Positions 109 to 13,647 of a stretch of 33,033 nucleotides of DNA are shown one piece after another. Each line of letters starts with the position of its first letter. Position 1 is the first letter of the stretch. The position numbers were made by a program, and so were the translations under genes. The notes below the pieces were generated by a model. It was not told the origin of the DNA, searched no databases, and was given only the letters and a program-made list of their open reading frames with translations. Source of the stretch: Thermotogae bacterium (GTDB lineage: Bacteria; Thermotogota; Thermotogae; Mesoaciditogales; Mesoaciditogaceae); contig JALSLY010000080.1 of assembly GCA_026988035.1 (NCBI GenBank), forward strand, positions 1 through 33,033, given 5' to 3'.

Positions 109-177
109 CATTGACGCACAACGTGAGATCATTAATGGTAATATGTGTTGTTCAAAAATTCACACGATCGCTATCCC

Positions 178-322
178 AAAGGAGTGGGATTCTCCAGTGG
201 AGAATATCTTTCCCACTTGCGCTCCGCAGCGAGCAAAGCGAGTGAAAGGAGTGGGATTCTCCGGTGGAGAATATCTTTCCCACTTGCGCTCCGCAGCGAG
301 CAAAGCGAGTGAAAGGAGTGGG
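178..322 (+). repeat. Tandem repeat, 67-bp unit, two full copies plus an 11-bp partial third
   Basis: Copy 1 is 178-244, copy 2 is 245-311, and the start of a third copy is 312-322. The two full copies differ at one base only (A196 versus G263). Each unit holds two hairpins. The first has outer arms AGTGGGA/TCCCACT (183-189 and 211-217) and inner arms TTCTCC/GGAGAA around a 3-base loop. The second has GCTC/GAGC arms (221-224, 231-234) inside CACT/AGTG (214-217, 241-244). Every unit begins with AAAGGAGTGGG, a Shine-Dalgarno-like string, and the partial third copy serves as the ribosome binding site of the gene at 328. A 62-codon ORF across the repeat is an artefact of it. Confidence 0.9.
312..318 (+). 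promoter_or_regulatory. Ribosome binding site supplied by the truncated third repeat copy
   Basis: AAAGGAG ends nine bases before the GTG at 328, and the string is identical to the start of repeat copies 1 and 2. It decides the start of the MutL-family gene. An ATG at 326 is closed at once by TGA, and the in-frame ATG at 343 has no comparable site. Confidence 0.6.
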
Positions 323-327
323 TTTAT

Positions 328-1680
328 GTGAGATTTGATGTCATGACAGCAGAAATAGGAAGCACAACCACGGTTGTAAGTGCTTTTACTGGTTTAGGAA
401 GCACTCCCAAGCTCGTCGCTCAAGGTGAACATTATACCACAGTTAATGAAGGAGATGTAACAATTGGCATAGAGCGGGCTTTGAAGTTTATAAAAGAAAA
501 GATCAAAGAACCCGTTGAATGGGAGAATTTGCTTGTTTCCTCGAGTGCTGCAGGTGGTCTGAAAATGACCGTTCATGGTCTTGTATATGACATGACAGCC
601 CGGGCAGCCAAAGAGGCCGCACTTGGTGCGGGAGGAGTTGTTAAATTAGTTACATCTGGAAAAATTTCACGCGATGTGATAGATAAAGTGCATCTCATAT
701 CGCCCAAACTTATCCTTTTAGCTGGTGGGGTAGATCACGGAGAATCCGAAACAGTGGTACACAACGCAAAGCTTTTTGCCCAGAGTGATATAAACGTTCC
801 CTTTGTTTATGCAGGAAATTTGGACGCTTCGGAAAGAGTAGTACAAATTTTGGAAAATAGTGGGAAAAAGGTAACTGTGACGCAGAATGTTTACCCCAAA
901 GTGGATGTTTTAAATGTGGAGCCCGTTAGAAAGATTGTCCAGAAGGTTTTTTCTCAAAATATCATTCATGCTCCCGGAATGGCAAAGCTTGATGGTCAGG
1001 TGAAGGGTCAAATAATACCAACTCCGGCAGCCGTTATGAAAGCTGGAAGTATCCTTCAAAAGGAGATGGGTGATTGCATAACAATAGATATCGGTGGAGC
1101 AACAACAGATGTGGATTCTTTTACAAACGGTAGTCCTGACATACAAAAGATTACTGTCTCACCAGAACCATTTGCAAAAAGAACGGTAGAAGGAGATCTT
1201 GGCGTTTTTATAAACGCATCTAATGTTGTAAAAAATTTCGAATGGATTTGCGAAGAATTTCCAGATAAGGATGAGCTTTTGAAAAAAATTACTCCGTATC
1301 CCAAAAATAAAAGAATTGAAGATTTTGTTCTGGCAATGGCCAAAGGGTGTGCAATAGAAAGTGTTCTGCGTCATTGCGGAACTATTCGTTATCTTTACGG
1401 TCCAACTGGGAGAATTAAACTGGCTGAAGGGAAAGACCTTACAGCCGTTACGAATATTTTTGGGACTGGTGGAGTTTTGAGTAGGTCAAGAAAAAGCTCA
1501 AAAGTCCTTGAAGAAATCCGTAATCTCGGACAGAAAAGGCCAATGGCTTTGCTCCCCCCAAAAGAGGCGAAATTATATGTAGATTCACATTATATATTCG
1601 CAGCCTGCGGTCTTATCTCTCAACTTGATGAAGAATCAGCAAAAAAATTACTTATTGGAGATGTAAAACGTGTCGGATGA
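328..1680 (+). CDS. MutL-family ATPase associated with B12-dependent mutases
   Basis: This 450-residue protein belongs to the glutamate mutase MutL family (not the mismatch-repair MutL). The family has the acetate kinase/Hsp70/actin fold and is thought to act as an ATP-dependent chaperone or reactivator for adenosylcobalamin mutases such as glutamate mutase or ornithine aminomutase. The phosphate-1-type loop AEIGSTTT lies at the N-terminus, the phosphate-2-type motif DIGGATTDVDSF near residue 250, and a late FGTGGVL glycine motif near residue 380, all as expected. The length fits the family. The start is GTG 328, nine bases after AAAGGAG in the repeat. It heads an overlapping gene series with rnhA (11-base overlap). 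No mutase subunit is certain in the window, so its partner is unknown. Confidence 0.82.
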   Translation: MRFDVMTAEIGSTTTVVSAFTGLGSTPKLVAQGEHYTTVNEGDVTIGIERALKFIKEKIKEPVEWENLLVSSSAAGGLKMTVHGLVYDMTARAAKEAALGAGGVVKLVTSGKISRDVIDKVHLISPKLILLAGGVDHGESETVVHNAKLFAQSDINVPFVYAGNLDASERVVQILENSGKKVTVTQNVYPKVDVLNVEPVRKIVQKVFSQNIIHAPGMAKLDGQVKGQIIPTPAAVMKAGSILQKEMGDCITIDIGGATTDVDSFTNGSPDIQKITVSPEPFAKRTVEGDLGVFINASNVVKNFEWICEEFPDKDELLKKITPYPKNKRIEDFVLAMAKGCAIESVLRHCGTIRYLYGPTGRIKLAEGKDLTAVTNIFGTGGVLSRSRKSSKVLEEIRNLGQKRPMALLPPKEAKLYVDSHYIFAACGLISQLDEESAKKLLIGDVKRVG

Positions 1681-2077
1681 CATTATAGTTAGAACTGACG
1701 GAGGCGCTCAAGGAAACCCCGGCCCAGCAGCTTCGGCTTTTGTTGTAGAAAATGGAGAAAGAATTATTTGTATGCACGCAGAATATATCGGATTGGCCAC
1801 TAACAATCAAGCTGAATATACAGCACTTGTGATGGCTTTGAAATATGTTCAGACAAACCTTTCAAAAAAGAAGATAAAAGTATTTGCTGACAGCCAACTG
1901 ATGATTAAACAATTGAAAGGAGAATACAAGGTGAAATCTCCAAGTCTTGTTCCACTATGGTCTAAAGCACATGAACTTGTTGATAAGCTGAATGCTTCTT
2001 TGGAGTGGGTTGAGCGCGATAAAAATCGTTTGGCAGATTCTCTTGTTGAAATGATTAGGAGGGTAAAAGGTGGATAA
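1670..2077 (+). CDS. rnhA: Ribonuclease HI
   Basis: This 135-residue RNase H-fold enzyme cuts the RNA strand of RNA-DNA hybrids and should act in the cytoplasm on R-loops and primers. The four acidic catalytic residues are visible: D10 in RTDGG, E49 in NNQAEYTAL, D74 in VFADSQ and D123 in NRLADSL. The GNPGPA turn after the first aspartate is typical of the type HI/plant-type group. The protein is a little shorter than E. coli RnhA (155 residues) and lacks an N-terminal hybrid-binding domain. Start GTG 1670 lies inside the end of the previous gene, and its stop overlaps the next gene by 8 bases, so translation is probably coupled. Confidence 0.88.
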   Translation: MSDDIIVRTDGGAQGNPGPAASAFVVENGERIICMHAEYIGLATNNQAEYTALVMALKYVQTNLSKKKIKVFADSQLMIKQLKGEYKVKSPSLVPLWSKAHELVDKLNASLEWVERDKNRLADSLVEMIRRVKGG

Positions 2078-2570
2078 AATATTCGATCTCGTGTTTTCAC
2101 CAAGACTTTTCTTCAAGACATCGAGATTCGACCTTTTGAGCTCAACATTAACTATATTTGTTGTGTGGATTGTTAACGTTTTGATTCTTTTTCCTATGCT
2201 TGGAAATATTCCGTTCTTTGGCGGTTTCTATATATTTTCAGCTATCCTCTTAGGGTTGATTGCAATCTATTACGCTTTAGCCATTGGTATTCATAGGATC
2301 GCTGGGAAGGGTGGGAAAACAGTTTTCCTGGGATTCCCTTTCGTTCTCTTTCCACATGTTATGACGGGGTGGATATTTTCCATATATTTTTTATGGAAAT
2401 GGGCAGCTGTTCTTTTTTTGATTCCTATTTTCTGGTCTTTCATACTCGAATTCTATCTTGTGAGAAGTTCCATGGGCTATGGAATGATCTACACTGTAAT
2501 TGTCAGAATCACACGTGATATAATTTTCTTTGTCTCTTTGTATGCGTTTTTAAAGGGATGGTTTGTATGA
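2070..2570 (+). CDS. Yip1-like integral membrane protein
   Basis: This 166-residue protein has about four or five hydrophobic helices (roughly residues 25-45, 50-75, 90-105, 110-130 and 145-162) after a short N-terminus with SPRLFFKT. A proline-aromatic motif before the first helix followed by a compact helix bundle is the pattern of the Yip1 family, whose bacterial members have no settled function. Start GTG 2070 follows AGGAGGG in the end of rnhA with an 8-base overlap. Its stop overlaps the ATG of the glycosyltransferase as ATGA. The family call is moderate, while membrane location is clear from composition. Confidence 0.6.
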   Translation: MDKIFDLVFSPRLFFKTSRFDLLSSTLTIFVVWIVNVLILFPMLGNIPFFGGFYIFSAILLGLIAIYYALAIGIHRIAGKGGKTVFLGFPFVLFPHVMTGWIFSIYFLWKWAAVLFLIPIFWSFILEFYLVRSSMGYGMIYTVIVRITRDIIFFVSLYAFLKGWFV

Positions 2571-3778
2571 ATATAGGCATGATGACCGACACGTATATCC
2601 CTCAAATAAATGGGGTAGCTACATCCGTCAATCTTTTCAAGAGATATCTTGAGAGCATGGGGGAAAGAGTTTACGTCTTTTCCCCTATGATACCGAAAAA
2701 CGAAAGCGGAACATTCAAAGTGAACGGTCTCAGATTTTTGTGGGAACCACAGCATAGACTTGCCATTCCGATATCCCATAAAATATTTAAGTTATCTACA
2801 AAGTTGAAGATCGACGTGGTTCATTCTCATGCCCCATTTAGCATGGGATTTCAGGCTTTGCGGATCAGTGAAAAATTGGGCCTTCCTCATATACACACAT
2901 ATCACACACTACTCACCGAATACAGGCACTATATACCATTTCCTTTTAGACCCACAGAGAATGCTGTCAGAGAATTCAGTAGTTGGTTTTGCAATTCTAC
3001 GGATGCAGTTATAGCACCAACTGGAAAAATTAAAGATGAACTCTTAGGTTACGGTGTGGAAGTTCCAATATATGTCCTTCCAACAGGTATAGACGTGGAA
3101 AATTTTAGAAGGCCTTTAAAATTTTCAATAAGAAAGCGTCACTCTATATCAGAAAATGATCATGTCATTTTGTTCGTTGGCAGGATTGCCAAGGAAAAAA
3201 ATGTAGATTTCGTTGTGAAAGCCTTCGCCCTTTTACATGAAAAGCTCAAAAACACAACGTTGATAATGATAGGGGACGGTCCAGAAATGAAGGAAGTTTC
3301 ACATCTGGCCTCCCATCTCAATATTTCAGATCATGTTGTAATGACTGGATACATGCCAAGAAATGAAATTGTAGAATACTACCGTCAATCGGATGTCTTT
3401 GCTTTTGCTTCAGTAACAGAGACTCAAGGCTTAGTTGTGCTGGAAGCTTTGGCTGCTGGTTTGCCCGTGGTTGCAGTGGCAAAAGAGGGAGTGGCAGATG
3501 CGTTAAAAGATGGTGTCGGATGCTCACTTATTGACACTGTTCAACTTAAAGACTTTGTCGACAGACTTTTGAAAATATTGAGAAACCCTGAATTTTCTAT
3601 GAAAATGTCAAATGACGGCATAAATTATGTGTTAGAACATTGGTCGATGAACACAATGGCTCGTCGACTTGATGAAATATACAAAGAAGTTGTGAAATCT
3701 TCTAAGAGAAGGAGGAAAAAATATGATTCCCAATCTTTTTTTGCTTATTTACACCGCCTCGGACTACGCGTTTTCTAA
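2567..3778 (+). CDS. GT4-family glycosyltransferase, probably lipid or polysaccharide glycosyltransferase
   Basis: This 403-residue GT-B enzyme of CAZy family 4 transfers a sugar from a nucleotide-sugar donor with retention. The N-terminal acceptor domain starts MNIGMMTDTYIPQINGVA, typical of the diglucosyl-diacylglycerol synthase-like subgroup. The donor domain begins at FVGRIAKEKN and contains the EX7E signature in ETQGLVVLEALAAG (near residues 285-295). Membrane glycolipid is a reasonable product but is inferred. I chose ATG 2567 (ATGA overlap with the previous stop) rather than ATG 2558, because AAAGGG at 2552-2557 gives it nine bases of spacing. The C-terminal tail is lysine/arginine rich and overlaps the next gene by 56 bases. 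No transmembrane helix is seen. Confidence 0.85.
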   Translation: MNIGMMTDTYIPQINGVATSVNLFKRYLESMGERVYVFSPMIPKNESGTFKVNGLRFLWEPQHRLAIPISHKIFKLSTKLKIDVVHSHAPFSMGFQALRISEKLGLPHIHTYHTLLTEYRHYIPFPFRPTENAVREFSSWFCNSTDAVIAPTGKIKDELLGYGVEVPIYVLPTGIDVENFRRPLKFSIRKRHSISENDHVILFVGRIAKEKNVDFVVKAFALLHEKLKNTTLIMIGDGPEMKEVSHLASHLNISDHVVMTGYMPRNEIVEYYRQSDVFAFASVTETQGLVVLEALAAGLPVVAVAKEGVADALKDGVGCSLIDTVQLKDFVDRLLKILRNPEFSMKMSNDGINYVLEHWSMNTMARRLDEIYKEVVKSSKRRRKKYDSQSFFAYLHRLGLRVF

Positions 3779-4358
3779 CAATTCATTGATTTACAAACAC
3801 GATAAGAAAGAAATCCAGAAGGCCTTCATATGGACAGTCTTAATTGCGTTAGCTTTGACTTTTGATCTTCTCACTAGCCTGACTGGTTTGTTAAGCGTGG
3901 CGCTTTACACCATTATTTTGATAGGATTAACTTTCCTCAAGTCTAAGAGTAACAGGAATGGATGGTATATATCTTCAGAGCTTATCAATGTGGGCTTGGC
4001 CATAGCATTCACAATTCCACTGTCTGGCTGGATAAGTTCACATTCTTATTTGCAGCCTCCATTTGTTAACTATCTTTTAGGGCTTACCATAGTGTCAGTG
4101 GTTTTTACAGACATATTCAGAAGGCTTGGATACATCCCAACAAAATCTGGAGACTCGGATGGAAATTTCGAAAGAATACTCTTTTTCATATTCGTGATGG
4201 CTTTGCAATGGTGGTACGTTGCGTTAACTCTACTTGGAATGAGCATCTACAGGCTCATAAGGTACAGAAAGTTCTCAAAAATGTGGTTGATAAGCCCTGC
4301 TATTAGCATCAGCTTTTCTTTGCTTTGGTTGCTACTCATGAGAAGTAATATCATTTAG
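3723..4358 (+). CDS. Unknown integral membrane protein
   Basis: I do not recognise this 211-residue protein. It has about six or seven hydrophobic stretches (near residues 1-12, 35-55, 58-72, 88-105, 115-130, 150-175 and 190-207) with a short charged loop DSDGNFER in the middle, and basic residues in the loops. The start at ATG 3723 is well supported by GAAGGAGG six bases upstream, although it lies 56 bases inside the glycosyltransferase gene. It is the last gene of the overlapping series that begins at 328. Its position after a GT4 enzyme allows a role in envelope lipid or polysaccharide handling, but nothing in the sequence proves it. Confidence 0.6.
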   Translation: MIPNLFLLIYTASDYAFSNNSLIYKHDKKEIQKAFIWTVLIALALTFDLLTSLTGLLSVALYTIILIGLTFLKSKSNRNGWYISSELINVGLAIAFTIPLSGWISSHSYLQPPFVNYLLGLTIVSVVFTDIFRRLGYIPTKSGDSDGNFERILFFIFVMALQWWYVALTLLGMSIYRLIRYRKFSKMWLISPAISISFSLLWLLLMRSNII

Positions 4359-4414
4359 AATATCGTGAGAATGCGCTTTTGGGAGGGTTTTTGAATACAA
4401 AAGGAGGGGTAAGA

Positions 4415-5428
4415 ATGAAAAAGTACGTGGCGTTTTTCATGATCTCGATGCTTATTCTTGGGACGGTGGCTCTATCAATTACCGTCACGTTTGTTACGGA
4501 CACAGGTGGATTAGGCGATAAATCCTTCAATGACAGTGCTTGGGCAGGAGTTGAAATGGCTGTTAAACAGTACGGAATCACAGCGAATATTATTCAATCG
4601 TACGAACAATCAGATTACGTTCCAAATCTCAGCGCCGCAGCTCAAATTTCTGACGCCGTTGTTGCTGTCGGATTCTTGATCAAAGAAGCTGTTGAACGAG
4701 TTGCACCACAATACCCTAACACAAAATTCATCTTTATAGACGGTTCTATCAAAAACATACCAAACGTGGAAAGCTACATATTTGACCAACAGCAAGGAGG
4801 GTTCTTGGTTGGCTACATAGCTGCTGCGATGTCCAAAACTGGTAAGGTGGGGGCTGTTTGCGGAATGCCTATACCACCGGTTAAAAGTTATCTGTTTGGA
4901 TACAAGGCCGGCGTTAAAACTTACAACATTCTCCATGGAAAAAATGTTCAAGTTCTTTCCGGATATGTTGGTAGTTTTGACGATCCATCAGCTGGCAAAG
5001 CTATGACAGAAAGCCAAATCAGTGCCGGTGCCGATATCGTCTTCCAACTTGCTGGATTGAGTGGCCTTGGAGTCATAGACGCGATGAGGGATCAACCTAA
5101 AGGCTACTTTGCGATAGGTGCAGATCAAGATCAAGATTATCTTGCGCCAGGGCACGTTCTTGTCAGTGCCATGAAGAGAGTTGATATCGGTGTCTTTGAC
5201 GGAATAAAATCAGTCATCGATGGAACATTTAAAGGCAAGACTTTCACACTATCGCTCAACAATGGTGGTATAGGAATAAGTCCCATGACTTACACAAAGC
5301 AACTTGTTCCAAAATCAATTTTTCACCAGCTTGACATTCTCGAGAATATGATAAGAAAAGGAAAATTGATCATACCTCAAACAAAAGCTGAATTTGACGC
5401 TTTCCAAGTTCCACAAATCAGTTTCTAA
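4415..5428 (+). CDS. BMP-family (Med/PnrA-like) solute-binding protein
   Basis: This 337-residue exported protein belongs to the basic membrane protein family, whose characterised members bind nucleosides for ABC import. An N-terminal signal sequence (residues 1-20, MKKYVAFFMISML...) precedes the family opening VTDTGGLGDKSFNDSAW. FDQQQGGFLVGYIA and GADQDQDYLAPGHVL are also typical. There is no lipobox cysteine, unlike most bacterial BMP lipoproteins, so it is probably soluble in the periplasm. The start is ATG 4415, six bases after AAGGAGGGG; a more upstream in-frame TTG lacks a site. No ATPase or permease gene is adjacent, since the neighbours are an unrelated operon and convergent bioY, so its transporter must be elsewhere. 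Confidence 0.85.
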   Translation: MKKYVAFFMISMLILGTVALSITVTFVTDTGGLGDKSFNDSAWAGVEMAVKQYGITANIIQSYEQSDYVPNLSAAAQISDAVVAVGFLIKEAVERVAPQYPNTKFIFIDGSIKNIPNVESYIFDQQQGGFLVGYIAAAMSKTGKVGAVCGMPIPPVKSYLFGYKAGVKTYNILHGKNVQVLSGYVGSFDDPSAGKAMTESQISAGADIVFQLAGLSGLGVIDAMRDQPKGYFAIGADQDQDYLAPGHVLVSAMKRVDIGVFDGIKSVIDGTFKGKTFTLSLNNGGIGISPMTYTKQLVPKSIFHQLDILENMIRKGKLIIPQTKAEFDAFQVPQISF

Positions 5429-5448
5429 AAAGTTCTTTGCCTCTATAT

Positions 5449-5487
5449 TACGCTCCCGTACTCTCTTTGGTAGAACACGGGAGCGTA
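5449..5487 (+). terminator. Hairpin after the BMP gene
   Basis: ACGCTCCCGT (5450-5459) and its exact complement ACGGGAGCGT (5477-5486) form a 10-bp stem, 11 bp with the flanking T-A pair, around a 17-base loop. It lies 21 bases after the stop of the binding protein gene. No strong T-run follows, so factor-independent termination is uncertain. It could equally serve as a 3' stabiliser, or as a bidirectional end, since bioY converges on it. Confidence 0.5.
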
Positions 5488-5597
5488 GCTTGTCCAAAAT
5501 TAAATTATTCACTCTTTGATCTTAAAGTGCTCCTATGTAACACCATGACGTTAGATCTCTCTTGTGCGTAATCAATATCGTCCAAGGTCGATTTGTG

Positions 5598-6155
5598 TTA
5601 TTTTCGTGAAGCTATATTGTTTTGTTTTCCGCCGTTCCCATTGAATGCCATGGATTCACTGAAATTCCGCACTTTGTAAGCAATTGGAAAGACAAGCACA
5701 ATTTTGATGGCGTCTATCCAAATGAAGGGAAGTACGCCAACACGTATAGCATTTACGATGCCATTGACGTACGTTGACAACAGCAAAGCCCCTGGGATGT
5801 ATATCGAGAGTAGCGATAACGCGAGTAAAATTACGCGTCCCACGCCATTTTTTCTCCATGCTGTTGATGCTATCCATGCAGCGGGAACGAACCCCCATAA
5901 ATATCCACCTGTAGGACCAACGAGTGTTGCAATTCCACTTGCACCTCCAGCAAAGATTGGAATGCCAATAGCTCCAAGAATCAAATATCCAATTGATACT
6001 TCAAGAGCTTCGATTGGATTCAAAAAGGCCGCCATCAAGAAAAAGGCAAATACCTGAAGGGTTATTGGCACAGGGCCTATTGGAAATGAGATGATCGAAA
6101 GCACTGAGACAAGCGCAAGCCATAGTGCCATTTTTGCTACATGTTTTGATGACAT
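5598..6155 (-). CDS. bioY: BioY biotin ECF transporter S component
   Basis: This 185-residue membrane protein is the biotin-binding S component of an energy-coupling factor transporter. Six hydrophobic helices are visible, with the family pattern FPIGPVPITLQVFAFFLMAAFL near the N-terminus and LVGPTGGYLWGFVPAAW near residues 78-94. It needs the EcfA ATPases and EcfT, which are not in this window, although some BioY proteins are reported to work alone. ATG 6155 follows GAAAGGAG with good spacing. It stands alone on the minus strand, so the organism may be a biotin scavenger, but I cannot judge whether biotin synthesis genes exist elsewhere. A BirA-type operator was not evident upstream. Confidence 0.9.
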   Translation of the reverse strand: MSSKHVAKMALWLALVSVLSIISFPIGPVPITLQVFAFFLMAAFLNPIEALEVSIGYLILGAIGIPIFAGGASGIATLVGPTGGYLWGFVPAAWIASTAWRKNGVGRVILLALSLLSIYIPGALLLSTYVNGIVNAIRVGVLPFIWIDAIKIVLVFPIAYKVRNFSESMAFNGNGGKQNNIASRK

Positions 6156-6201
6156 GGTAGAGCAACTCCTTTCGTATTTACATCAAAAAAATTCCCAAGT
6201 T

Positions 6202-6210
6202 GTATTAGCA
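6202..6210 (-). promoter_or_regulatory. Possible extended -10 for bioY
   Basis: On the minus strand TGCTAATAC (a TGn extended -10 with TAATAC) lies about 47 bases upstream of the bioY ATG. No good -35 is seen at 17 bases, so this rests on the extended -10 alone. Confidence 0.3.
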
Positions 6211-6334
6211 AACTTTGTGCCCAATTCAGAATTCCCATTCTTTAAAGATTCCATATTTATGAAAATCCCGCACCATCTATATTCTGGATAGTCACCAAGA
6301 TTTGGTATGTGAAATTTGAACAAAGCACATTCGT

Positions 6335-8194
6335 TTAGACTTTCAAAGCCGTTTCAAAACCAGAATGAACGGCATCATATATTTGACCTGGCTTCTTGGC
6401 ATCCCCTATTTTAATTGAACCTTCAGGGGACGGGTTAGATTTGACTCCTATGGTAAATATCACAGCGTCAAATTCCCCAATGTCAATTTGCTTGTTCTCA
6501 GTTAAGCATATAGCATGATTTGCTTCAAACCTTTCGAGCTTAGTTTTAGTATATACTTTCACTTTTGCCTTGTCCAAACGATTTAATGTTAGTGTACGCG
6601 TTATTGGTTCCATATCTCTTGCTATGTCTGAAAACATTTCGATTATACTTACCTCCTTGCCATTGTTTGCCAGGTGATCTGCAGCCTCGATGCCTATCAT
6701 CCCTCCGCCAACAATTAAAATTTTTTTCGCATTCTTTAACTTTTCCGGATTTGAGAAATACTCATGCCCTGTCAATTGAATCACGTTCTCTACACCTGGT
6801 ACATTTATCTTGATCGGGCTGCTTCCGACAGCGGAAAGAATTATGTCATAGTTTCTCGAACCTGAATTGGTGAACTTAGTATTGTAAGTTATCGTGATGT
6901 CAGAACGAAGAACTTTTTTTATTAAAGAATCTATTGGTTTTTTCATTGTTTCTTTTCCTACAGCAACATAAGCAAGTTTTGCTGTTCCACCAAGTTCTTT
7001 TGCTTCTTCAAATATCTCAACTTCATATCCACGTTCCTTTAGAACAACAGCTGCTTCCAAACCAGATGGACCTCCACCAATTATCGCTACACGTTTGTGT
7101 TTTTGAGCTTTCTCGATCTTTCCTGCCCATCCAACCCTTGGATTCACAATGCATCCAAGGCCTTCTCCGGATTTTACCTTCGCCAAACAGCCTTGTACAC
7201 ATCCACCGCAATAAATGATCTCATCTGTTTTCCCGTTTCGTATTTTGTTTGGAAATTCCGGATCCGCCACTAAGGATCTGCCAAGCGCAAAAAAATCAGC
7301 GAGCTTCCCGGAGACTGCATTTTCAAGTCTTTCGGGATCTCCAAATCTTCCAGCAGCTATGATTGGTAACGAAGTAAAGCCTCGTATTTTTCTTAATGAC
7401 TCTTCATGAAAGATTTTTGGAACAAACATGTGGTGATAGTAAAAAGCAGGAGAGACACAAGCATTTCCCATACCAACATGAATGGCAGCCACTCCTTTAT
7501 TTTCTACTAACTGGATCAGATCTTTAAGATCTTCAGTGTGTAATCCGTTTTCTGCCATCTCATCACCGGAAACGCGGACTATCACTGGCAAACCCGCACT
7601 TTTAACTGCATTTATAACATCATTTGCAAACTTCAAAGGCTCTGAATATTCGTCTTTTCTGTGGTTGATAAACTTTGAGTAAAATTGAGAAACAAGGTAA
7701 CCATGCCCCATTTGTATCTCTATTACATCTGCTCCAGATCTTTTAGCACGAATAGCTGTTTTCTTAAAAGCTTCAATTGTTTCAAAAATCTCGCCTTTTG
7801 TCATTTCATGAGCAACAGCTCCAGTTAGTGGGCATAAAACTTCGGATGAGGAAATAACAACGTTTGAGGTAACTTTCGGATTAGCAGCACGCCCAGCGTG
7901 ATTGAGATGAACACACGCAAGGGCACCATTTGAGTGAATCGTGTCTATTATTTTCTCAACAGAAGAAATGAACTCATCCGAATCAAGTCTAAGCTGCTTA
8001 GGGTGCTCTCTTCCACTTAAAGTTACAGATACTGGTTCCACACAAACCATGGCCACGCCACCTTTGGATATCGAAGAGTAATAGGCGATATGGCGGTCAG
8101 TTACTGTTTGACCATATCCGGTTTTGATCGGAGCAGAGAAGAGCCGGTTTTTCAGATGGAGATTTCCCAAAGAAGTTTCTTCGAAAATTTGCAT
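6335..8194 (-). CDS. FMN/4Fe-4S/FAD NAD(P)H oxidoreductase of the old yellow enzyme-2,4-dienoyl-CoA reductase family
   Basis: This 619-residue protein has the three-part layout of FadH-like 2,4-dienoyl-CoA reductases and related NADH oxidases. Residues 1-320 form the FMN TIM barrel, with the HGYLVSQFYSKFINHRKDEY active-site region. The cluster cysteines are C329, C332, C336 and C348 (CGGCVQGC then C). A first dinucleotide motif IIGGGPSGLEAA (about 371-382) and a second, VGGGMIGIEAA, lie in the C-terminal FAD/NAD domains. Electrons should pass from NAD(P)H through FAD and the cluster to FMN and an enoyl or other electrophilic substrate, which cannot be read from sequence. ATG 8194 has AAGGAGG upstream. 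The promoter carries a palindrome suggesting repressor control. It is monocistronic here. Confidence 0.87.
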   Translation of the reverse strand: MQIFEETSLGNLHLKNRLFSAPIKTGYGQTVTDRHIAYYSSISKGGVAMVCVEPVSVTLSGREHPKQLRLDSDEFISSVEKIIDTIHSNGALACVHLNHAGRAANPKVTSNVVISSSEVLCPLTGAVAHEMTKGEIFETIEAFKKTAIRAKRSGADVIEIQMGHGYLVSQFYSKFINHRKDEYSEPLKFANDVINAVKSAGLPVIVRVSGDEMAENGLHTEDLKDLIQLVENKGVAAIHVGMGNACVSPAFYYHHMFVPKIFHEESLRKIRGFTSLPIIAAGRFGDPERLENAVSGKLADFFALGRSLVADPEFPNKIRNGKTDEIIYCGGCVQGCLAKVKSGEGLGCIVNPRVGWAGKIEKAQKHKRVAIIGGGPSGLEAAVVLKERGYEVEIFEEAKELGGTAKLAYVAVGKETMKKPIDSLIKKVLRSDITITYNTKFTNSGSRNYDIILSAVGSSPIKINVPGVENVIQLTGHEYFSNPEKLKNAKKILIVGGGMIGIEAADHLANNGKEVSIIEMFSDIARDMEPITRTLTLNRLDKAKVKVYTKTKLERFEANHAICLTENKQIDIGEFDAVIFTIGVKSNPSPEGSIKIGDAKKPGQIYDAVHSGFETALKV

Positions 8195-8219
8195 GATATC
8201 TTTCCTCCTTTTGCCTTTT

Positions 8220-8243
8220 TATACCCTGTGCGGGTATATTATA
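8220..8243 (-). promoter_or_regulatory. Promoter -10 with overlapping operator-like palindrome
   Basis: TATACCC (8220-8226) and GGGTATA (8232-8238) form a perfect 7-bp inverted repeat around TGTGC. On the minus strand a consensus TATAAT lies at 8243-8238, so the palindrome covers the end of the -10 and the likely start site of the oxidoreductase mRNA. That is a classic repressor position. The TACCC-spacer-GGGTA form recalls operators of the CsoR/CstR/RcnR family as I remember them; no such regulator is in the window. No clear -35 is seen. Confidence 0.55.
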
Positions 8244-8316
8244 TACGAAAATATATGGAAATTGTATCTAAGCTACTTTGAGCAGTTGAGAGGTGCATCA
8301 AAAGGAGGAATGTTCA

Positions 8317-9237
8317 TCAAATCAACCTAAATTTTCCAGATGAATCGCATTCTATATCGCCATTCACTTCAAGCATCGTAAGTTTAACGTTTAATTCATT
8401 CATAGGTATTCCGATCGAGTGGCTTATCTCTTCAGTTGTTTTTGGACCTTTTTTCAAACATTCGATGATGGGATCGTCTATTTGTTCACTTTTTTGAGCA
8501 AGTTTAACGTACTCGAACTCCTCTATCACATCATCTACACATGTGGTACACTTTGCCCCTTCCTTGATCAATTCATTTGTGCCTTCACTTGATAAAGAGA
8601 AAATAGGACCTGGAACGGCAAAAACTTCTCTTCCCTCTTCAAGAGCTAAGCGAGCTGTTATCAAAGAACCGCTGCGTTTTGCTGCCTCAATTACAACCGT
8701 CCCTTTGGAAAGTCCGGCTATTATTCTGTTGCGCCTTGGAAATGTCCATTTATCGGGTTTGCTTCCAAAGGGAAACTCACTCACTAAACATCCGTGTTTT
8801 TTCACTTCTTCGAAAAGTTTCGCATTTGAACGTGGATAAACAATGTCCACTCCATTTCCAAGAACAGCAATAGTGCTTCCATTCTTGACTGCTGCGGCAT
8901 GGGCGGTAGAATCTATCCCATACGCCAATCCGCTCACGATCACCACACCATTTCTTGCAAGATCCCCTGCAATTAACGACGCTGCTGCTTTCCCATAAGA
9001 ACTTGCTTTTCTAGACCCGACGACAGCTATTGAAAATCTGCTTAACACATCTATTCTTTCTCCCCAAACATACAAAAGAGGGGGAGGCTCGTGGATCTCA
9101 ACCAAGGATTTTGGATATAGTTCATCTCCATAGGGAATGAGAGAGACTCCGATTTTCTCTGCCTTCTCGATCTCCTTTCGTATTCTTTCATGAGATTCTG
9201 TTTTTAATGCCTTAGCGACGGCTTCTTCGATCTTCAT
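8317..9237 (-). CDS. dprA: DNA processing protein DprA/Smf
   Basis: This 306-residue protein protects incoming single-stranded DNA and loads RecA during natural transformation. The Rossmann-like core is clear: AVVGSRKASSYG, VSGLAYGIDSTAHAAA, AVLGNGVDIVYP, FPRRNRIIAGLS, and EAAKRSGSLITARLALEEGREVFAVPG in family order. The C-terminal winged-helix domain (from about residue 245, CLKKGPKTTEEISHSIG) is present. The N-terminal region is short and no full SAM-like domain is obvious. ATG 9237 overlaps the mutL stop as ATGA, so translation is coupled. It is the last gene of the rlmB-mutL-dprA operon. No other competence gene is in the window. Confidence 0.93.
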   Translation of the reverse strand: MKIEEAVAKALKTESHERIRKEIEKAEKIGVSLIPYGDELYPKSLVEIHEPPPLLYVWGERIDVLSRFSIAVVGSRKASSYGKAAASLIAGDLARNGVVIVSGLAYGIDSTAHAAAVKNGSTIAVLGNGVDIVYPRSNAKLFEEVKKHGCLVSEFPFGSKPDKWTFPRRNRIIAGLSKGTVVIEAAKRSGSLITARLALEEGREVFAVPGPIFSLSSEGTNELIKEGAKCTTCVDDVIEEFEYVKLAQKSEQIDDPIIECLKKGPKTTEEISHSIGIPMNELNVKLTMLEVNGDIECDSSGKFRLI

Positions 9238-10949
9238 CGCCCAAAATACCTATCCAATCTCTTAAAATCGATCGAGTATACGAGAGGCCTTCCGTGTGGG
9301 CACGACCAAACTTCAAGCTCATCAAGATCTTTTAGAAGTTGATCGATCTCTTCTATGGATATTTTTTCTCCGGTTTTTACAGCGGCTTTGCATGCAAGCG
9401 TTGCCAAAAATTCATTTCGGGGATCTTCAACGAATGAGAGTCGAAACGATTCAACAGTGGATATAAATACTTCTCGCCAGTCTATAGCTTTTCCTAAGTT
9501 TGGAACTCCTGTGAGCTCATCATCTTTCCATTCAAAACCAAAGTCATGTATTTCATTTTTGTGCTCTTCAAGGATCTCTCTTTGTGTTTCCGTAAGATCG
9601 AGTTTTATTGATATTGCAAGATGCTGTGATGTACTAAAGGGTGTAGTTTTGAACTTATCATAAAGAATCCTTTCATGTGCTGCATGCATATCAACAAGAT
9701 ATAAAGCATTCTCACTTTCACAAGTTATATATCTCCCATGTATAACGCCAAGAAATTTAGTTTTTGAAAGTTTTTCACGTGCTTCCGCCAATTCTGGGCG
9801 TTTTGGTATCATATCCGTGTCAAACGGTACATTTAAGTTCTTAGAACTGCTTTTTTTAAGCTGAGAAAAGTTCGTGGAAAAAAGTAGATTTTTTTGAGAA
9901 ACTTGTGATGAATTAAAATCACCCGCTGTAGGTTCGGAAGTTCTCATTGGTCCTTTTTCTATCGGTATTTTAAAGACGGAAGGAGACGCCAAAGCTTTTT
10001 TAACAGCTCCAACTATCATTCCAAATATTTTCGACTGATCGCTAAATTTTACTTCCAATTTTTGAGGATGAACGTTCACATCCACTAATTGAGGTGGAAC
10101 TTCCAAAAACATGACAGCAATGGGAAACTCTCCCTTTTTCAAGTGTTGAGCATATCCCACTTCAATCGCCTTCATTAAAAGACCACTACGAACATATCTT
10201 CCATTGACAAAGATGATTTCGTTCACTCTGTTCTGTCTTCCAACTGTTGGGGCGCTGACGTAACCATAGATCCTAACGCCACCAAATACTGAATCCATTT
10301 TTACCAGCTCGTAATCTCCAAGAACTACTTTTATTCTTTCTTCGAGGGAGAGTCCCGGTTTTATGTTGTAAATTTCTTGATCATCATGAAGATACCGAAA
10401 GCCCACATTTTTAGAGAGAATAAACTTTTGAACTACTTCGGTAACCATTCTGGTTTCGACAGAAGTAGAGCTGAGGAACTTTCTTCTTGCTGGTATGTTG
10501 AAAAACAGATCTGACACAATAACACGAGTGCCTCTCTCTTTGGCGATCTTTGTAACTTCGCCTATTGCCCCACCAATTACATCAAGTGAAGCACCTATCT
10601 CTCCTGAAGAAGACGTTTCTATTCTCATCTTGGAAACAGCACTTATCGATCCTAAGGCTTCTCCTCTAAATCCAAAAGTTCCTATTCTGTACAAATCTTC
10701 AAATTTTTCTATCTTAGAGGTTGTATGCGGCAAAACAGCTACTTTGAGTTCTTCTGCAGACATCCCATTTCCGTTGTCTTCAACAACAATTCGAGATTTT
10801 CCACCACCATCTATTGAAATCTTTATTTTGTCAGCGCCTGCATCTAAACCATTTTCGATCAATTCCTTCACAACAGAAGATGGATGGTCCACAACTTCTC
10901 CAGCTGCAATTCTCCTTACAATTTCCTCTGGAAGTTTATGAATTGGCAT
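9234..10949 (-). CDS. mutL: DNA mismatch repair protein MutL with endonuclease domain
   Basis: This 571-residue GHKL ATPase couples mismatch recognition by MutS to strand incision. N-terminal motifs are complete: ELIENGLDAGA (catalytic Glu and Mg-binding Asn), DNGNGM, and GTFGFRGEALGS. The transducer region includes HPQKLEVKF. After a variable linker (about residues 320-385) the C-terminal domain has the endonuclease motif as DMHAAHERILYD, where the canonical last Glu of DQHA(X)2E(X)4E is Asp, and the metal-site CPHGRP near the C-terminus. It should therefore be a nicking MutL as in bacteria lacking MutH. It overlaps rlmB by 14 bases and dprA by 4. mutS is not in the window. Confidence 0.95.
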   Translation of the reverse strand: MPIHKLPEEIVRRIAAGEVVDHPSSVVKELIENGLDAGADKIKISIDGGGKSRIVVEDNGNGMSAEELKVAVLPHTTSKIEKFEDLYRIGTFGFRGEALGSISAVSKMRIETSSSGEIGASLDVIGGAIGEVTKIAKERGTRVIVSDLFFNIPARRKFLSSTSVETRMVTEVVQKFILSKNVGFRYLHDDQEIYNIKPGLSLEERIKVVLGDYELVKMDSVFGGVRIYGYVSAPTVGRQNRVNEIIFVNGRYVRSGLLMKAIEVGYAQHLKKGEFPIAVMFLEVPPQLVDVNVHPQKLEVKFSDQSKIFGMIVGAVKKALASPSVFKIPIEKGPMRTSEPTAGDFNSSQVSQKNLLFSTNFSQLKKSSSKNLNVPFDTDMIPKRPELAEAREKLSKTKFLGVIHGRYITCESENALYLVDMHAAHERILYDKFKTTPFSTSQHLAISIKLDLTETQREILEEHKNEIHDFGFEWKDDELTGVPNLGKAIDWREVFISTVESFRLSFVEDPRNEFLATLACKAAVKTGEKISIEEIDQLLKDLDELEVWSCPHGRPLVYSIDFKRLDRYFGR

Positions 10950-11664
10950 TATTTCTCATCTCCATTGCACGAAATAAAATTACAGCAACACTGACGGAAA
11001 CGTTGAGAGAATCCATTTTCCGCGCCATGGGAATAGACAAAAAATCATCACTTTTCTTCATGACAAGTCTTCGCACTCCTCTCCCCTCATTTCCAAAAAC
11101 AAAGGCAATTGGCCCAGTCATATCAACTTCATAATAGGGTTTCCCGTTCATGGTAGCTGTGTACACCCATACGTCCCGTTTTTTCAGTTCCTCAACCACT
11201 CTTGCAAGATTTGTTTCTATGGATATTGGCATTCTGAAAGCGTATCCTGCGGAGGTTTTTAAAACTGCCGGTGTTACGAGGCATCCACCGTGTTCCGGAA
11301 GAATCAGCAAATCAACTCCTGCGCCATAAGCACTTCGCACAATAGCGCCAACGTTGTGCGGATCCTGAACTTGATCGAGAATCACAACGAACGGAGGATG
11401 GTTAAGGTGATCAAGAACCTTAAAAGTATCTGCGTATTTGTAATCTTTAATCTTTGCCGCTATCCCTTGATGATCCTTGGAATGTGCAATATCTTCTAAT
11501 CTCTTTTCATTTACTTTTTCAATCGATATCTTTATGTGCCTCAGTTCGTTCTCGATTTGCTTCATTTCCTGTGAAAGATTTAAAGAATCTATAATGTACA
11601 CTTTATTCATGTGTATTTTGGCTCTTATCGCTTCTTTGACAACATTTCGACCGTAGATTATCAT
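10936..11664 (-). CDS. rlmB: 23S rRNA (guanosine-2'-O-)-methyltransferase RlmB, TrmH/SpoU family
   Basis: This 242-residue SPOUT methyltransferase transfers a methyl group from S-adenosylmethionine to a ribose 2'-OH, most likely on 23S rRNA. An N-terminal substrate-binding domain opens with IIYGRNVVKEAI. The three SpoU motifs follow: ILDQVQDPHNVGAIVRSA, FVFGNEGRG and IPMARKMDSLNVSVSVAV, the last forming the trefoil knot. I place the start at ATG 11664, seven bases after GAGGAGAG. The 22 extra upstream codons (to 11730) lack a binding site and family similarity. RlmB versus another TrmH paralogue cannot be settled without alignment. It is the first gene of the operon with mutL and dprA. Confidence 0.88.
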   Translation of the reverse strand: MIIYGRNVVKEAIRAKIHMNKVYIIDSLNLSQEMKQIENELRHIKISIEKVNEKRLEDIAHSKDHQGIAAKIKDYKYADTFKVLDHLNHPPFVVILDQVQDPHNVGAIVRSAYGAGVDLLILPEHGGCLVTPAVLKTSAGYAFRMPISIETNLARVVEELKKRDVWVYTATMNGKPYYEVDMTGPIAFVFGNEGRGVRRLVMKKSDDFLSIPMARKMDSLNVSVSVAVILFRAMEMRNNANS

Positions 11665-11705
11665 AACTTCTCTCCTCTTGTCTACTGTAAACTCCGTTCT
11701 TAATT

Positions 11706-11714
11706 TGCTAAAAT
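11706..11714 (+). promoter_or_regulatory. Extended -10 promoter for the MaoC gene
   Basis: TGCTAAAAT fits a TGn extended -10 with TAAAAT at 11709-11714, about 50 bases before the ATG at 11764. It lies close to the oppositely directed candidate at 11734-11742. Confidence 0.45.
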
Positions 11715-11733
11715 AGCACCAAGTACCCACATC

Positions 11734-11742
11734 ATTTTACCA
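11734..11742 (-). promoter_or_regulatory. Extended -10 promoter for the rlmB-mutL-dprA operon
   Basis: On the minus strand TGGTAAAAT (11742 to 11734) matches the extended -10 seen at several other promoters here. The predicted start site near 11727 leaves a leader of about 60 bases before the rlmB ATG at 11664. Confidence 0.45.
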
Positions 11743-11763
11743 TGTTAGAAGGAGGAAATTTTT

Positions 11764-12168
11764 ATGAATTTCGAAGAGATAAGTATTGGTGATACCAGAG
11801 AATTCGAGGCAAAGGTAACTGATGAAATGGTGAGAGAATTTGCTCGAATCACAGGAGACAACAATCCACTTCATTTAGACGAAGAATTCGCAAAAAAAAG
11901 CATCTTTGGCAGACGTATAGCACATGGAATGCTGGTTGCCTCTTTAATATCGAAAGTTTTAGGACACGACTTTCCAGGGGCTGGTACAGTATACGTTTCG
12001 CAATTTGTTAAATTTCGCAAGCCCGTTTATGTTAACGACACAATAAAAATAAGAATAGAAGTAAAAGATAAGAATCCTGAAAAGCGCAGGCTATTCTTAT
12101 CCACGACCGTAATAGACAATGACAAAAATGTTATAACTGGCGAAGCGGAAATTTATCTCCCAAGTTAG
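11764..12168 (+). CDS. MaoC-like (R)-specific enoyl-CoA hydratase
   Basis: This 134-residue hot-dog-fold protein hydrates trans-2-enoyl thioesters to (R)-3-hydroxyacyl thioesters. The hydratase-2 motif is intact: FARITGDNNPLHLDEEFAKKSIFGRRIAHGM, with the catalytic Asp and His in DNNPLH and the later AHGM, around residues 27-55. The length fits the single-domain PhaJ/MaoC type. Whether it acts on CoA or ACP thioesters is open. A GAAGGAGG site lies just before ATG 11764. It is transcribed divergently from rlmB and converges on the next gene, with interlocking stop codons at 12165-12168. Confidence 0.85.
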   Translation: MNFEEISIGDTREFEAKVTDEMVREFARITGDNNPLHLDEEFAKKSIFGRRIAHGMLVASLISKVLGHDFPGAGTVYVSQFVKFRKPVYVNDTIKIRIEVKDKNPEKRRLFLSTTVIDNDKNVITGEAEIYLPS

Positions 12169-12887
12169 TTGACGAAGCGCGCACGTATCCCCTCATCGCT
12201 TTTTACAAATTCATTGACTTCGGTTGGAAGCCTTACTAACAAATAAAGCCAGTATATGCCGAATGTGACGATTGTCAAGATAAGAACCAGGAAAATATTC
12301 CTCTTTGCTATAGGTCGGAGTTCTTCAATTTGAGGTAATCCTTTCATATTTCTGAGATACGAGTAAACTCTGTTTTTTACTCCATAAATTGATGCGGCGG
12401 TTGAGAATATTTGATGAAGATATATGAGAAAGAAAACAAAACCAACAAGACCGAACACGGTCGTTACTGGCGGCACAAAAGAGAAAATCATAGCAACTAC
12501 ATAGGATATCACGTACCCCCAAAACGCCCATCCGGGTATACTTTCGCTTTCCAATTCTCTCGCCGCTGCTTCGATTTCAGATTTGATCGAAAGATCATCT
12601 GTTTGAATGTTAGCAAGCATTGCGCGTGTGTGCACTATATTGTTGTTCAGTACATCCATGATCTGTTTTAAAACAATCAACTGCAAAATTGCTGTGACAA
12701 TGCCTAAAATTAACACAAAAACATAGGCGGTTGAACCAACCGAAAGCAAAATTGGCATATCCATCCCGGTATCCATACCACCAAATGCTCTCATGCCAGC
12801 TGCCATAATTATAGTGCTTGTTACGAACATTATCACTATTAATATGATCACAGTCACAGCTAATCCGACGTTCACTCTGCCATCCAT
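12165..12887 (-). CDS. DUF4234-like membrane protein
   Basis: This 240-residue protein has hydrophobic helices near residues 8-32, 45-75, 118-150 and 198-220. The last helix, within FLVLILTIVTFGIYWLYLLVRL, has the pattern of DUF4234 (a Tyr/Trp-rich helix after TxGIY), a family without a settled function. A soluble segment of about 35 residues rich in Glu and Ser (about 85-115) lies between helices 2 and 3. ATG 12887 follows a GGGGGTGG stretch. Its TAA shares bases with the TAG of the convergent MaoC gene, and no terminator separates them. Function unknown. Confidence 0.65.
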   Translation of the reverse strand: MDGRVNVGLAVTVIILIVIMFVTSTIIMAAGMRAFGGMDTGMDMPILLSVGSTAYVFVLILGIVTAILQLIVLKQIMDVLNNNIVHTRAMLANIQTDDLSIKSEIEAAARELESESIPGWAFWGYVISYVVAMIFSFVPPVTTVFGLVGFVFFLIYLHQIFSTAASIYGVKNRVYSYLRNMKGLPQIEELRPIAKRNIFLVLILTIVTFGIYWLYLLVRLPTEVNEFVKSDEGIRARFVN

Positions 12888-12948
12888 AGATCCACCCCCT
12901 CTATTTTTAATTAAATATTATCACAAAACAAAATAGATGGCAAAAAAA

Positions 12949-12977
12949 TTGTTTTTTAGTTTTATTAAGGGTATAAT
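12949..12977 (+). promoter_or_regulatory. Promoter of the hemolysin-III family gene
   Basis: TTGTTT (12949-12954) and a consensus TATAAT (12972-12977) are 17 bases apart. The predicted start is about 20 bases before the TGAGGAGG ribosome site at 12985. It is one of the best classical sigma-70-type promoters in the window. Confidence 0.7.
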
Positions 12978-13002
12978 CAGTGTTTGAGGAGGTTTACTTA
13001 CA

Positions 13003-13647
13003 ATGAATAATACAGAAAGCTTTAGATTGAGAGAAGAAATAGTCAATTCGATAACTCACGGCGTAGCTGCGCTTCTTTCGATAGCTGCGTTGGTCTTGCT
13101 GATCGTTTTTTCGGCTGTTCACGGAAATCCTTGGTATATTGTTAGTTTTACCATATACGGTTCCACGCTTGTAATACTCTATACGATTTCAACTTTGTAT
13201 CATAGTTTTCCAAATGGCGTAACTAAAAATGTTTTCGAAATTTTGGACCATTCATCCATTTTTTTGCTCATAGCCGGAACATATACACCTTTCACATTGG
13301 TGAGCTTAAGGGGACCGCTTGGATGGACAATTTTTGGAATCGTTTGGGGATTGGCTGCGGTGGGAATTGTTTTCAAAGTATTCTTTGTTAAGAGATTTGT
13401 CATTCTCTCAACTTTGCTTTACATTGTTATGGGCTGGATGATAGTTATTTCTATGAAAAATCTTATGGCAGTTTTGCCAGAAATAAGCTTGATTTTTCTG
13501 GTTGTCGGCGGCATCCTTTATACAGTTGGTACGATATTTTATATAAAAAGAAAGATCCCCTACCATCATGCTATATGGCATATCTTTGTTCTTGGCGGTA
13601 GTGCGTTCCACTTCTTCGCGATATTGGAACTTTTACAACCAAAATGA
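13003..13647 (+). CDS. Hemolysin III (PAQR/YqfA) family membrane protein
   Basis: This 214-residue protein has seven hydrophobic helices and the family metal-site residues: STLYHSF in helix 2, DHSSIFLLIAGTYTPF, and YHHAIWHIFVLGGSAFHFF near the C-terminus, giving the Ser/His/Asp/His/His set of PAQR-type zinc sites. The N-terminal EEIVNSITHG is also typical. Members are related to adiponectin/progestin receptors and may be hydrolases or stress-response membrane proteins; the hemolysin name is historical. ATG 13003 has TGAGGAGG upstream and a strong promoter at 12949-12977. It is monocistronic and converges on the phospholipase-D-type gene with an 11-base gap. Confidence 0.9.
   Translation: MNNTESFRLREEIVNSITHGVAALLSIAALVLLIVFSAVHGNPWYIVSFTIYGSTLVILYTISTLYHSFPNGVTKNVFEILDHSSIFLLIAGTYTPFTLVSLRGPLGWTIFGIVWGLAAVGIVFKVFFVKRFVILSTLLYIVMGWMIVISMKNLMAVLPEISLIFLVVGGILYTVGTIFYIKRKIPYHHAIWHIFVLGGSAFHFFAILELLQPK

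Follow-up and report, generated by a model that had tools for sequence, protein, structure and literature searches.

The CsoR fold and the general mode of action of the regulators that carry it are already known. CstR leaves DNA through the formation of di- and trisulfide bridges (PMC9918477, PMC9405070), and sulfane-sulfur release from DNA has been described for CstR/YrkD (PMC9918477). In T. thermophilus, the CsoR-family protein TTHA1953 contains two cysteines, binds DNA in the reduced state and loses this binding on disulfide formation; it represses sulfur genes, including a thioredoxin, through an operator distinct from that of TtCsoR (CCCCACCCCACCTGGGGTGGGG; PMC10318464). Among the Thermotogota, S0-induced genes of T. 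maritima, including mbxA and nsr, were reported in 2022, with the mechanism of sulfur reduction described as 'not fully understood' (PMC9431562).

The window, which is the whole 33,033-nucleotide stretch of DNA analysed here, carries a perfect palindrome in front of a gene for an Fe-S flavoprotein. The best explanation overall, and a likely one, is that a CsoR-family repressor with a Cys-Tyr-Cys signature (C-Y-C) uses this palindrome as its operator, acting as a thiol/sulfur switch that would control a protein disulfide oxidoreductase-thioredoxin reductase operon (PDO-TrxR), a glutaredoxin gene (Grx) and the flavoprotein gene. The features concerned are the following.

6335-8194, minus strand: Fe-S flavoprotein of 619 aa, from its open reading frame and profile matches.
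8204-8212, minus strand: AAAAGGAGG, ribosome-binding site of the flavoprotein gene, read from the sequence.
8220-8238, no strand assigned: predicted palindromic operator with perfect 7-base arms, TATACCC-TGTGC-GGGTATA, with the core ATACCC-N5-GGGTAT; best match in the genome.
8238-8243, minus strand: TATAAT, probable -10 of the flavoprotein gene, read from the sequence.

The perfect 7-bp inverted repeat reported by the first-pass annotation is present at 8220-8238; the end point of 8243 originally given to it is reached only by including the minus-strand TATAAT, with which the repeat overlaps by a single base. If transcription is assumed to start about 7 nt past the -10, the repeat spans approximately -7 to +12 of the flavoprotein gene. 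No standard -35 is recognisable upstream of the TATAAT, the promoter scan returned no minus-strand sigma-70 match, and no terminator-like signature was found at the palindrome. With up to two mismatches allowed, the window contains a single occurrence of the pattern versus 0.05 expected from dinucleotide shuffles, 5 of 100 of which contain one match. The flavoprotein gene is followed on the same strand by a gene for a BioY-family protein (5598-6155, minus), and upstream of it lie dprA (8317-9237) and a mutL-like gene (9234-10949).

Across the genome (2.04 Mb in 86 contigs; Mesoaciditogaceae, Thermotogota), the palindrome in the window is the sole perfect 14-base match, joined by one site with one mismatch and five listed with two mismatches. 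The further top sites, sought elsewhere in the genome as first proposed, precede genes of thiol-disulfide enzymes. The one-mismatch site (TATACCCTGTGTGGGTATT) is directly upstream of the gene for PDO, a glutaredoxin-like protein disulfide oxidoreductase (TIGR02187, 272 bits versus a cut-off of 185), with a thioredoxin reductase gene (TIGR01292) directly downstream to form the PDO-TrxR operon, and a two-mismatch site (GATACCCCGTGGGGGCATA) lies upstream of a YruB-type glutaredoxin gene (TIGR02196). The two-mismatch sites on C12, C23 and C41 fall within coding genes (that on C69 was left out). Only the top few sites in the genome are meaningful, because matches with three mismatches show no excess over the control pattern (65 versus 101). 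A relaxed scan yielded 18 matches versus 20 for the control, on which ground a large regulon in this genome was rejected; only four of the matches inspected are at promoters (C76:75431 and C84:15210 were left out), the scan adding a promoter site at C28:13402, upstream of an Mrp/complex-I-like operon. The best promoter sites in this genome are those of the flavoprotein, PDO-TrxR and Grx, and no rhodanese gene with an operator site was found in it.

The suggestion, made at first from the TACCC/GGGTA arms, that a regulator of the CsoR/CstR/RcnR family acts here is well supported, given that the genome encodes two PF02583 (CsoR/RcnR) genes and that one of the two types co-occurs with the palindrome throughout the class. 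This C-Y-C regulator (G000:C53:7245-7478) is a protein of 86 aa with Cys33, Tyr58 and Cys62, and its PF02583 score of 92.8 bits (cut-off 22.8) places it in the family. The other gene encodes a copper-type CsoR with a Cys-His-Cys signature (C-H-C; C52:31892-32128) and lies downstream of copZ. The 79 CsoR-family proteins in 61 genomes of the class divide into 46 of the C-H-C and 33 of the C-Y-C type, with no intermediates. One C-Y-C regulator per genome is found in 33 of the 61 genomes, spread over six families, and all 33 proteins retain both cysteines and have Tyr in place of His. This histidine is a copper ligand in CsoR; the C-Y-C type, which does not have the Cys-His-Cys ligand set, is therefore not a classical copper sensor. 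With two conserved cysteines (Cys33 and Cys62) and no metal-binding His, its place being taken by Tyr, the C-Y-C protein resembles CstR, and the solved chain closest to it, 7mq1 (61 bits), is deposited as 'csoR', has Asn at the His position and is presumably a CstR.

The C-Y-C gene sits between RNase R-like and CtpA-like genes (named from sequence inspection) and does not adjoin its proposed targets. Autoregulation was considered and rejected, as no palindrome with at most one mismatch lies upstream of the gene in the C-Y-C loci inspected. A gene for a CtpA-like S41 protease follows the C-Y-C gene, directly or after one gene, in most families inspected, and this neighbourhood (L001, L084, L072) is kept whatever lies upstream.

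The regulator and the site occur together with near-perfect regularity. In the 61 genomes, nearly all of which have PDO, promoters were searched for TACCC-N5-GGGTA with zero to two mismatches. The motif is present at the PDO promoter in 32 of 33 C-Y-C genomes, 45-131 nt upstream of the matched start, versus 2 of 26 genomes without the regulator, and at glutaredoxin promoters in 28 of 31 versus 1 of 27. The corresponding Fisher p values (4e-13 for PDO, 8e-12 for glutaredoxin) are nominal and overstated since the genomes are related; the genomes are phylogenetically clustered, with perhaps three to four independent joint losses of regulator and site. Genus g10 (family f7) and families f2, f10 and f11 have neither. 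The exceptions are G026 and G032, which have a one-mismatch site at PDO without a C-Y-C regulator, and G027, which has the regulator and no PDO site. The spacer is fixed: with at most one mismatch, N5 is found in 55 of 64 promoters versus 0-1 for N2-4 or N6-9. Sixty sites yield the consensus ATACCC-N5-GGGTAT, and the target promoters thus carry the TACC..GGTA half-site pseudo-palindrome expected of CsoR/RcnR operators. Exact sites summed over the 61 genomes show no overall excess (76 versus 74 for the control), with 65 in C-Y-C genomes (control 35) and 11 in the others (control 39); the operator signal resides in location and in C-Y-C genomes. From this co-occurrence we infer that the C-Y-C protein binds ATACCC-N5-GGGTAT, and the palindrome in front of the flavoprotein gene is very probably one of its operators.

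The shared operator extends to a further thiol-redox gene, that of the membrane thiol-electron carrier CcdA (PF02683), whose promoters carry the site in families f3, f7 and f9. In G026, which has no C-Y-C regulator, PDO, TrxR, glutaredoxin, a thioredoxin-like protein and CcdA are encoded together in a single cluster, which provides independent evidence that PDO, TrxR, Grx and CcdA work together. In family f1, near-operator palindromes with other spacers are found about 90-194 nt upstream of CcdA (L368, L372, L373 and L382, from G005, G004, G007 and G008, respectively), including TACCC-N4-GGGTA in G008 (TATACCCTATAGGGTATA) and palindromes with six-base spacers in G004 and G005 (e.g. CATACCCCAGAGGGGGTATAC); these could be variant sites or those of another regulator.

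A reduced oligomer of the C-Y-C regulator would occupy the palindrome over the -10/start and block transcription. Thiol oxidation or loading with sulfane sulfur (from disulfides, persulfides or polysulfide) would link Cys33 and Cys62 across subunits, whereupon the linked regulator would leave the DNA and allow expression of PDO and TrxR, the YruB-type glutaredoxin and this lineage's flavoprotein. Elsewhere CcdA would join the induced set, as probably would, in some members of the family, an operon resembling that of membrane-bound sulfane reductase (MBS). By restoring thiols, the induced reductases would then reset the switch.

It is fairly likely that the effector is a sulfur or thiol oxidant. 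Among the effectors originally proposed (copper, persulfide, nickel and formaldehyde), this kind fits best because the targets are thiol-disulfide reductases, the copper-ligating His is replaced and the copper paralogue has its own operator; metals and formaldehyde are less likely. A C-Y-C regulator that responds to formaldehyde, to some other metal or to electrophiles (enones or quinones, for example) would suit the habit of Old Yellow Enzyme-type flavoproteins of reducing electrophiles, and we know of no tested precedent for Tyr at the His position. FrmR and RcnR are also members of the family (PMC5016687). Such an effector is nevertheless unlikely, as both cysteines are invariant in the 33 proteins, PDO-TrxR and Grx, the core targets, are thiol-disulfide enzymes, as is CcdA, and 7mq1 is likewise without the His.

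It is very unlikely that the C-H-C copper CsoR is the protein that uses the operator, with the flavoprotein, PDO and Grx forming a copper response. Copper attacks thiols, the two regulators are of the same protein family and their half-sites (TACCC/TACCCC) are alike; however, the motif is missing from genomes that have C-H-C only. None of these 12 genomes has the palindrome at Grx (G013 has one two-mismatch site far upstream) and only two have a one-mismatch site at PDO, while three f3 genomes and G007 carry sites together with C-Y-C and have no detected C-H-C gene. The copper operon of this genome, comprising copZ and the C-H-C CsoR gene, starts from the promoter TATACCCCACCCCGAGGGGGTGGG, similar to the copper operator of T. 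thermophilus (PMC10318464), and carries a different, G-tract operator (TACCCCACCCCGAGGGGGTGGG). Copper CsoR was rejected as the main owner of the site for these two reasons, the missing motif and the differing operator.

The flavoprotein itself combines an N-terminal Oxidored_FMN domain, a CxxCxxxC-x11-C cluster motif and a C-terminal Pyr_redox_2 domain. Among curated families, BaiCD, long-form bilirubin reductase and mycofactocin OYE come nearest, each matched well below its equivalog cut-off, and the best relative with a solved structure is 2,4-dienoyl-CoA reductase. We take the characteristic residues of the E. coli enzyme (FadH) to be the pair Tyr166/His252, with His252 catalytic; the flavoprotein keeps the GY motif but places no His opposite His252. 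A search of the genome for acyl-CoA dehydrogenases found none, and the protein thus has neither the residue pair nor the fatty-acid oxidation setting of FadH. On these two grounds a part in fatty-acid breakdown was rejected as unlikely, in agreement with the first-pass annotation, which had set the enzyme apart from that process. The flavoprotein probably uses NAD(P)H to reduce thiol-reactive electrophiles or oxidised sulfur species.

The initial reading looked to a CsoR-family regulator in the genome, which is encoded, and to a palindrome upstream of orthologues of the flavoprotein gene, which is absent from the nearest three (G002, with 78% identity, and G007 and G004, with 70-71%). The G002 promoter keeps the -10 and upstream sequence, the palindrome being replaced. 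Control of the flavoprotein gene is therefore not conserved even within the genus, and only two of five homologues with at least 40% identity in C-Y-C genomes have a site. These observations would suit a palindrome that is genuine but idle in front of the flavoprotein, with a true regulon of PDO and Grx only. This is very improbable, however, given that the flavoprotein site is the best match in the genome, that it lies at the -10/start like the PDO and Grx sites, and that a perfect site (TTACCCCTCAGGGGTAC) also stands some 27 nt ahead of the start of a homologue with 40% identity from a different family (G035, L026). The flavoprotein looks like a lineage-specific member of the regulon, recruited or retained separately, and it is quite probable that the C-Y-C regulator truly controls it.

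A chance palindrome or a transcription terminator or attenuator is hardly credible, for although some genomes have the exact motif inside genes or in longer hairpins (TAGGCTACCCCTCAGGGGTAGCC in L098; AGACTACCC...GGGTAGTCT in L047/L128), no terminator-like site is present at 8220-8238, and the promoter position, the fixed spacer and the class-wide link to thiol-redox genes all argue for an operator. The hairpins of family f1 (L047, L098, L052, L128), such as TAGGCTACCCCTCAGGGGTAGCC, have exact TACCC-N5-GGGTA as their core and directly precede a gene for a membrane protein of about 86 aa starting MWQTI; they are perhaps terminators, not operators.

The operon on C28 encodes MrpE, other Mrp-like subunits, two MrpD-like subunits, NuoH and B-, C- and D-like subunits, as well as a fusion of NuoI and GltD-like domains and an additional GltD-like protein of the NfnB/SudA type. 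Its L subunit matches 6u8y_L with an E value of 5e-118 versus 2e-40 for MBH 6cfw_L, its J subunit matches 6u8y_J at 4e-69 versus 7e-30 for MBH 6cfw_J, and two Proton_antipo_M proteins are present. We take 6u8y to be MBS; with its L, J and two MrpD-like (H/H') subunits, the operon is of the MBS and not the MBH type. The site before it is perfect and beside TATAAT in G007 and G004, has one mismatch in G000, G001 and G002, takes weaker forms in G005, G012 and G059, and is absent in the genus g2 and f9 genomes inspected. The C-Y-C regulator probably controls this operon in some members of family f1, though not throughout the class. The NuoI-like subunit fused to a GltD-like (Fer4_20 + Pyr_redox_2) domain is found at L315 (G000:C28:1-20000; 166-13320, minus); this fusion and the GltD-like gene that follows point to a possible connection of the sulfane-reductase module with NADPH. 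For the control genome of T. maritima no PF02583 match was reported; that species must therefore rely on a different sensor.

In comparison with known systems, the C-Y-C protein is closest to CstR (S. aureus, E. faecalis; YrkD of B. licheniformis), with which it shares the CsoR fold, two conserved cysteines and the lack of a copper-binding His. The two differ in the residue at the His position, which is a conserved Tyr in C-Y-C and Asn in CstR, and in their targets: PDO-TrxR, Grx, CcdA and the flavoprotein for C-Y-C, versus rhodanese/sulfurtransferase, CoA-persulfide reductase or SQR operons for CstR. Moreover, CstR usually adjoins its targets, whereas the C-Y-C gene lies away from them. TTHA1953 offers a second parallel: its C39/C68 have the same 29-residue spacing as C33/C62 of C-Y-C, and each is a second CsoR-family protein besides a copper CsoR, encoded far from its targets. 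In contrast, its operator is TACNNTACNNNNGTANNGTA rather than ATACCC-N5-GGGTAT, and it serves the Sox oxidation pathway, whereas C-Y-C would serve anaerobic thiol and sulfur reduction. Cu(I) CsoR (C-H-C) is alike in family, fold and half-sites; C-Y-C differs from it in the replaced metal-binding His, the operator and the targets. The C-Y-C signature, its operator and a class-wide PDO/Grx/CcdA regulon are without description in the literature searched, a search outside of which lay most subscription journals and RegPrecise itself.

A similar gene set is controlled in Thermococcales by the sulfur-response regulator SurR, whose targets include PDO and whose response includes the MBX/MBS operon (PMC6981617). 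SurR is archaeal, with an ArsR-type DNA-binding domain, and is unrelated to C-Y-C, such that the likeness is at most functional convergence. Tentatively, the C-Y-C thiol switch may be a SurR-like bacterial system, a sulfur/redox regulator in about half of the sampled Thermotogota that controls thiol repair and, in some lineages, sulfur respiration, and is reset by PDO. For 33 genomes, the analysis names a candidate regulator, defines its putative operator precisely and lists a small number of targets, and it places a BaiCD/OYE-like Fe-S flavoprotein in a putative thiol/sulfur response. It also suggests that bacteria and archaea living in comparable environments assembled sulfur regulons that are alike around repressors that are not related.
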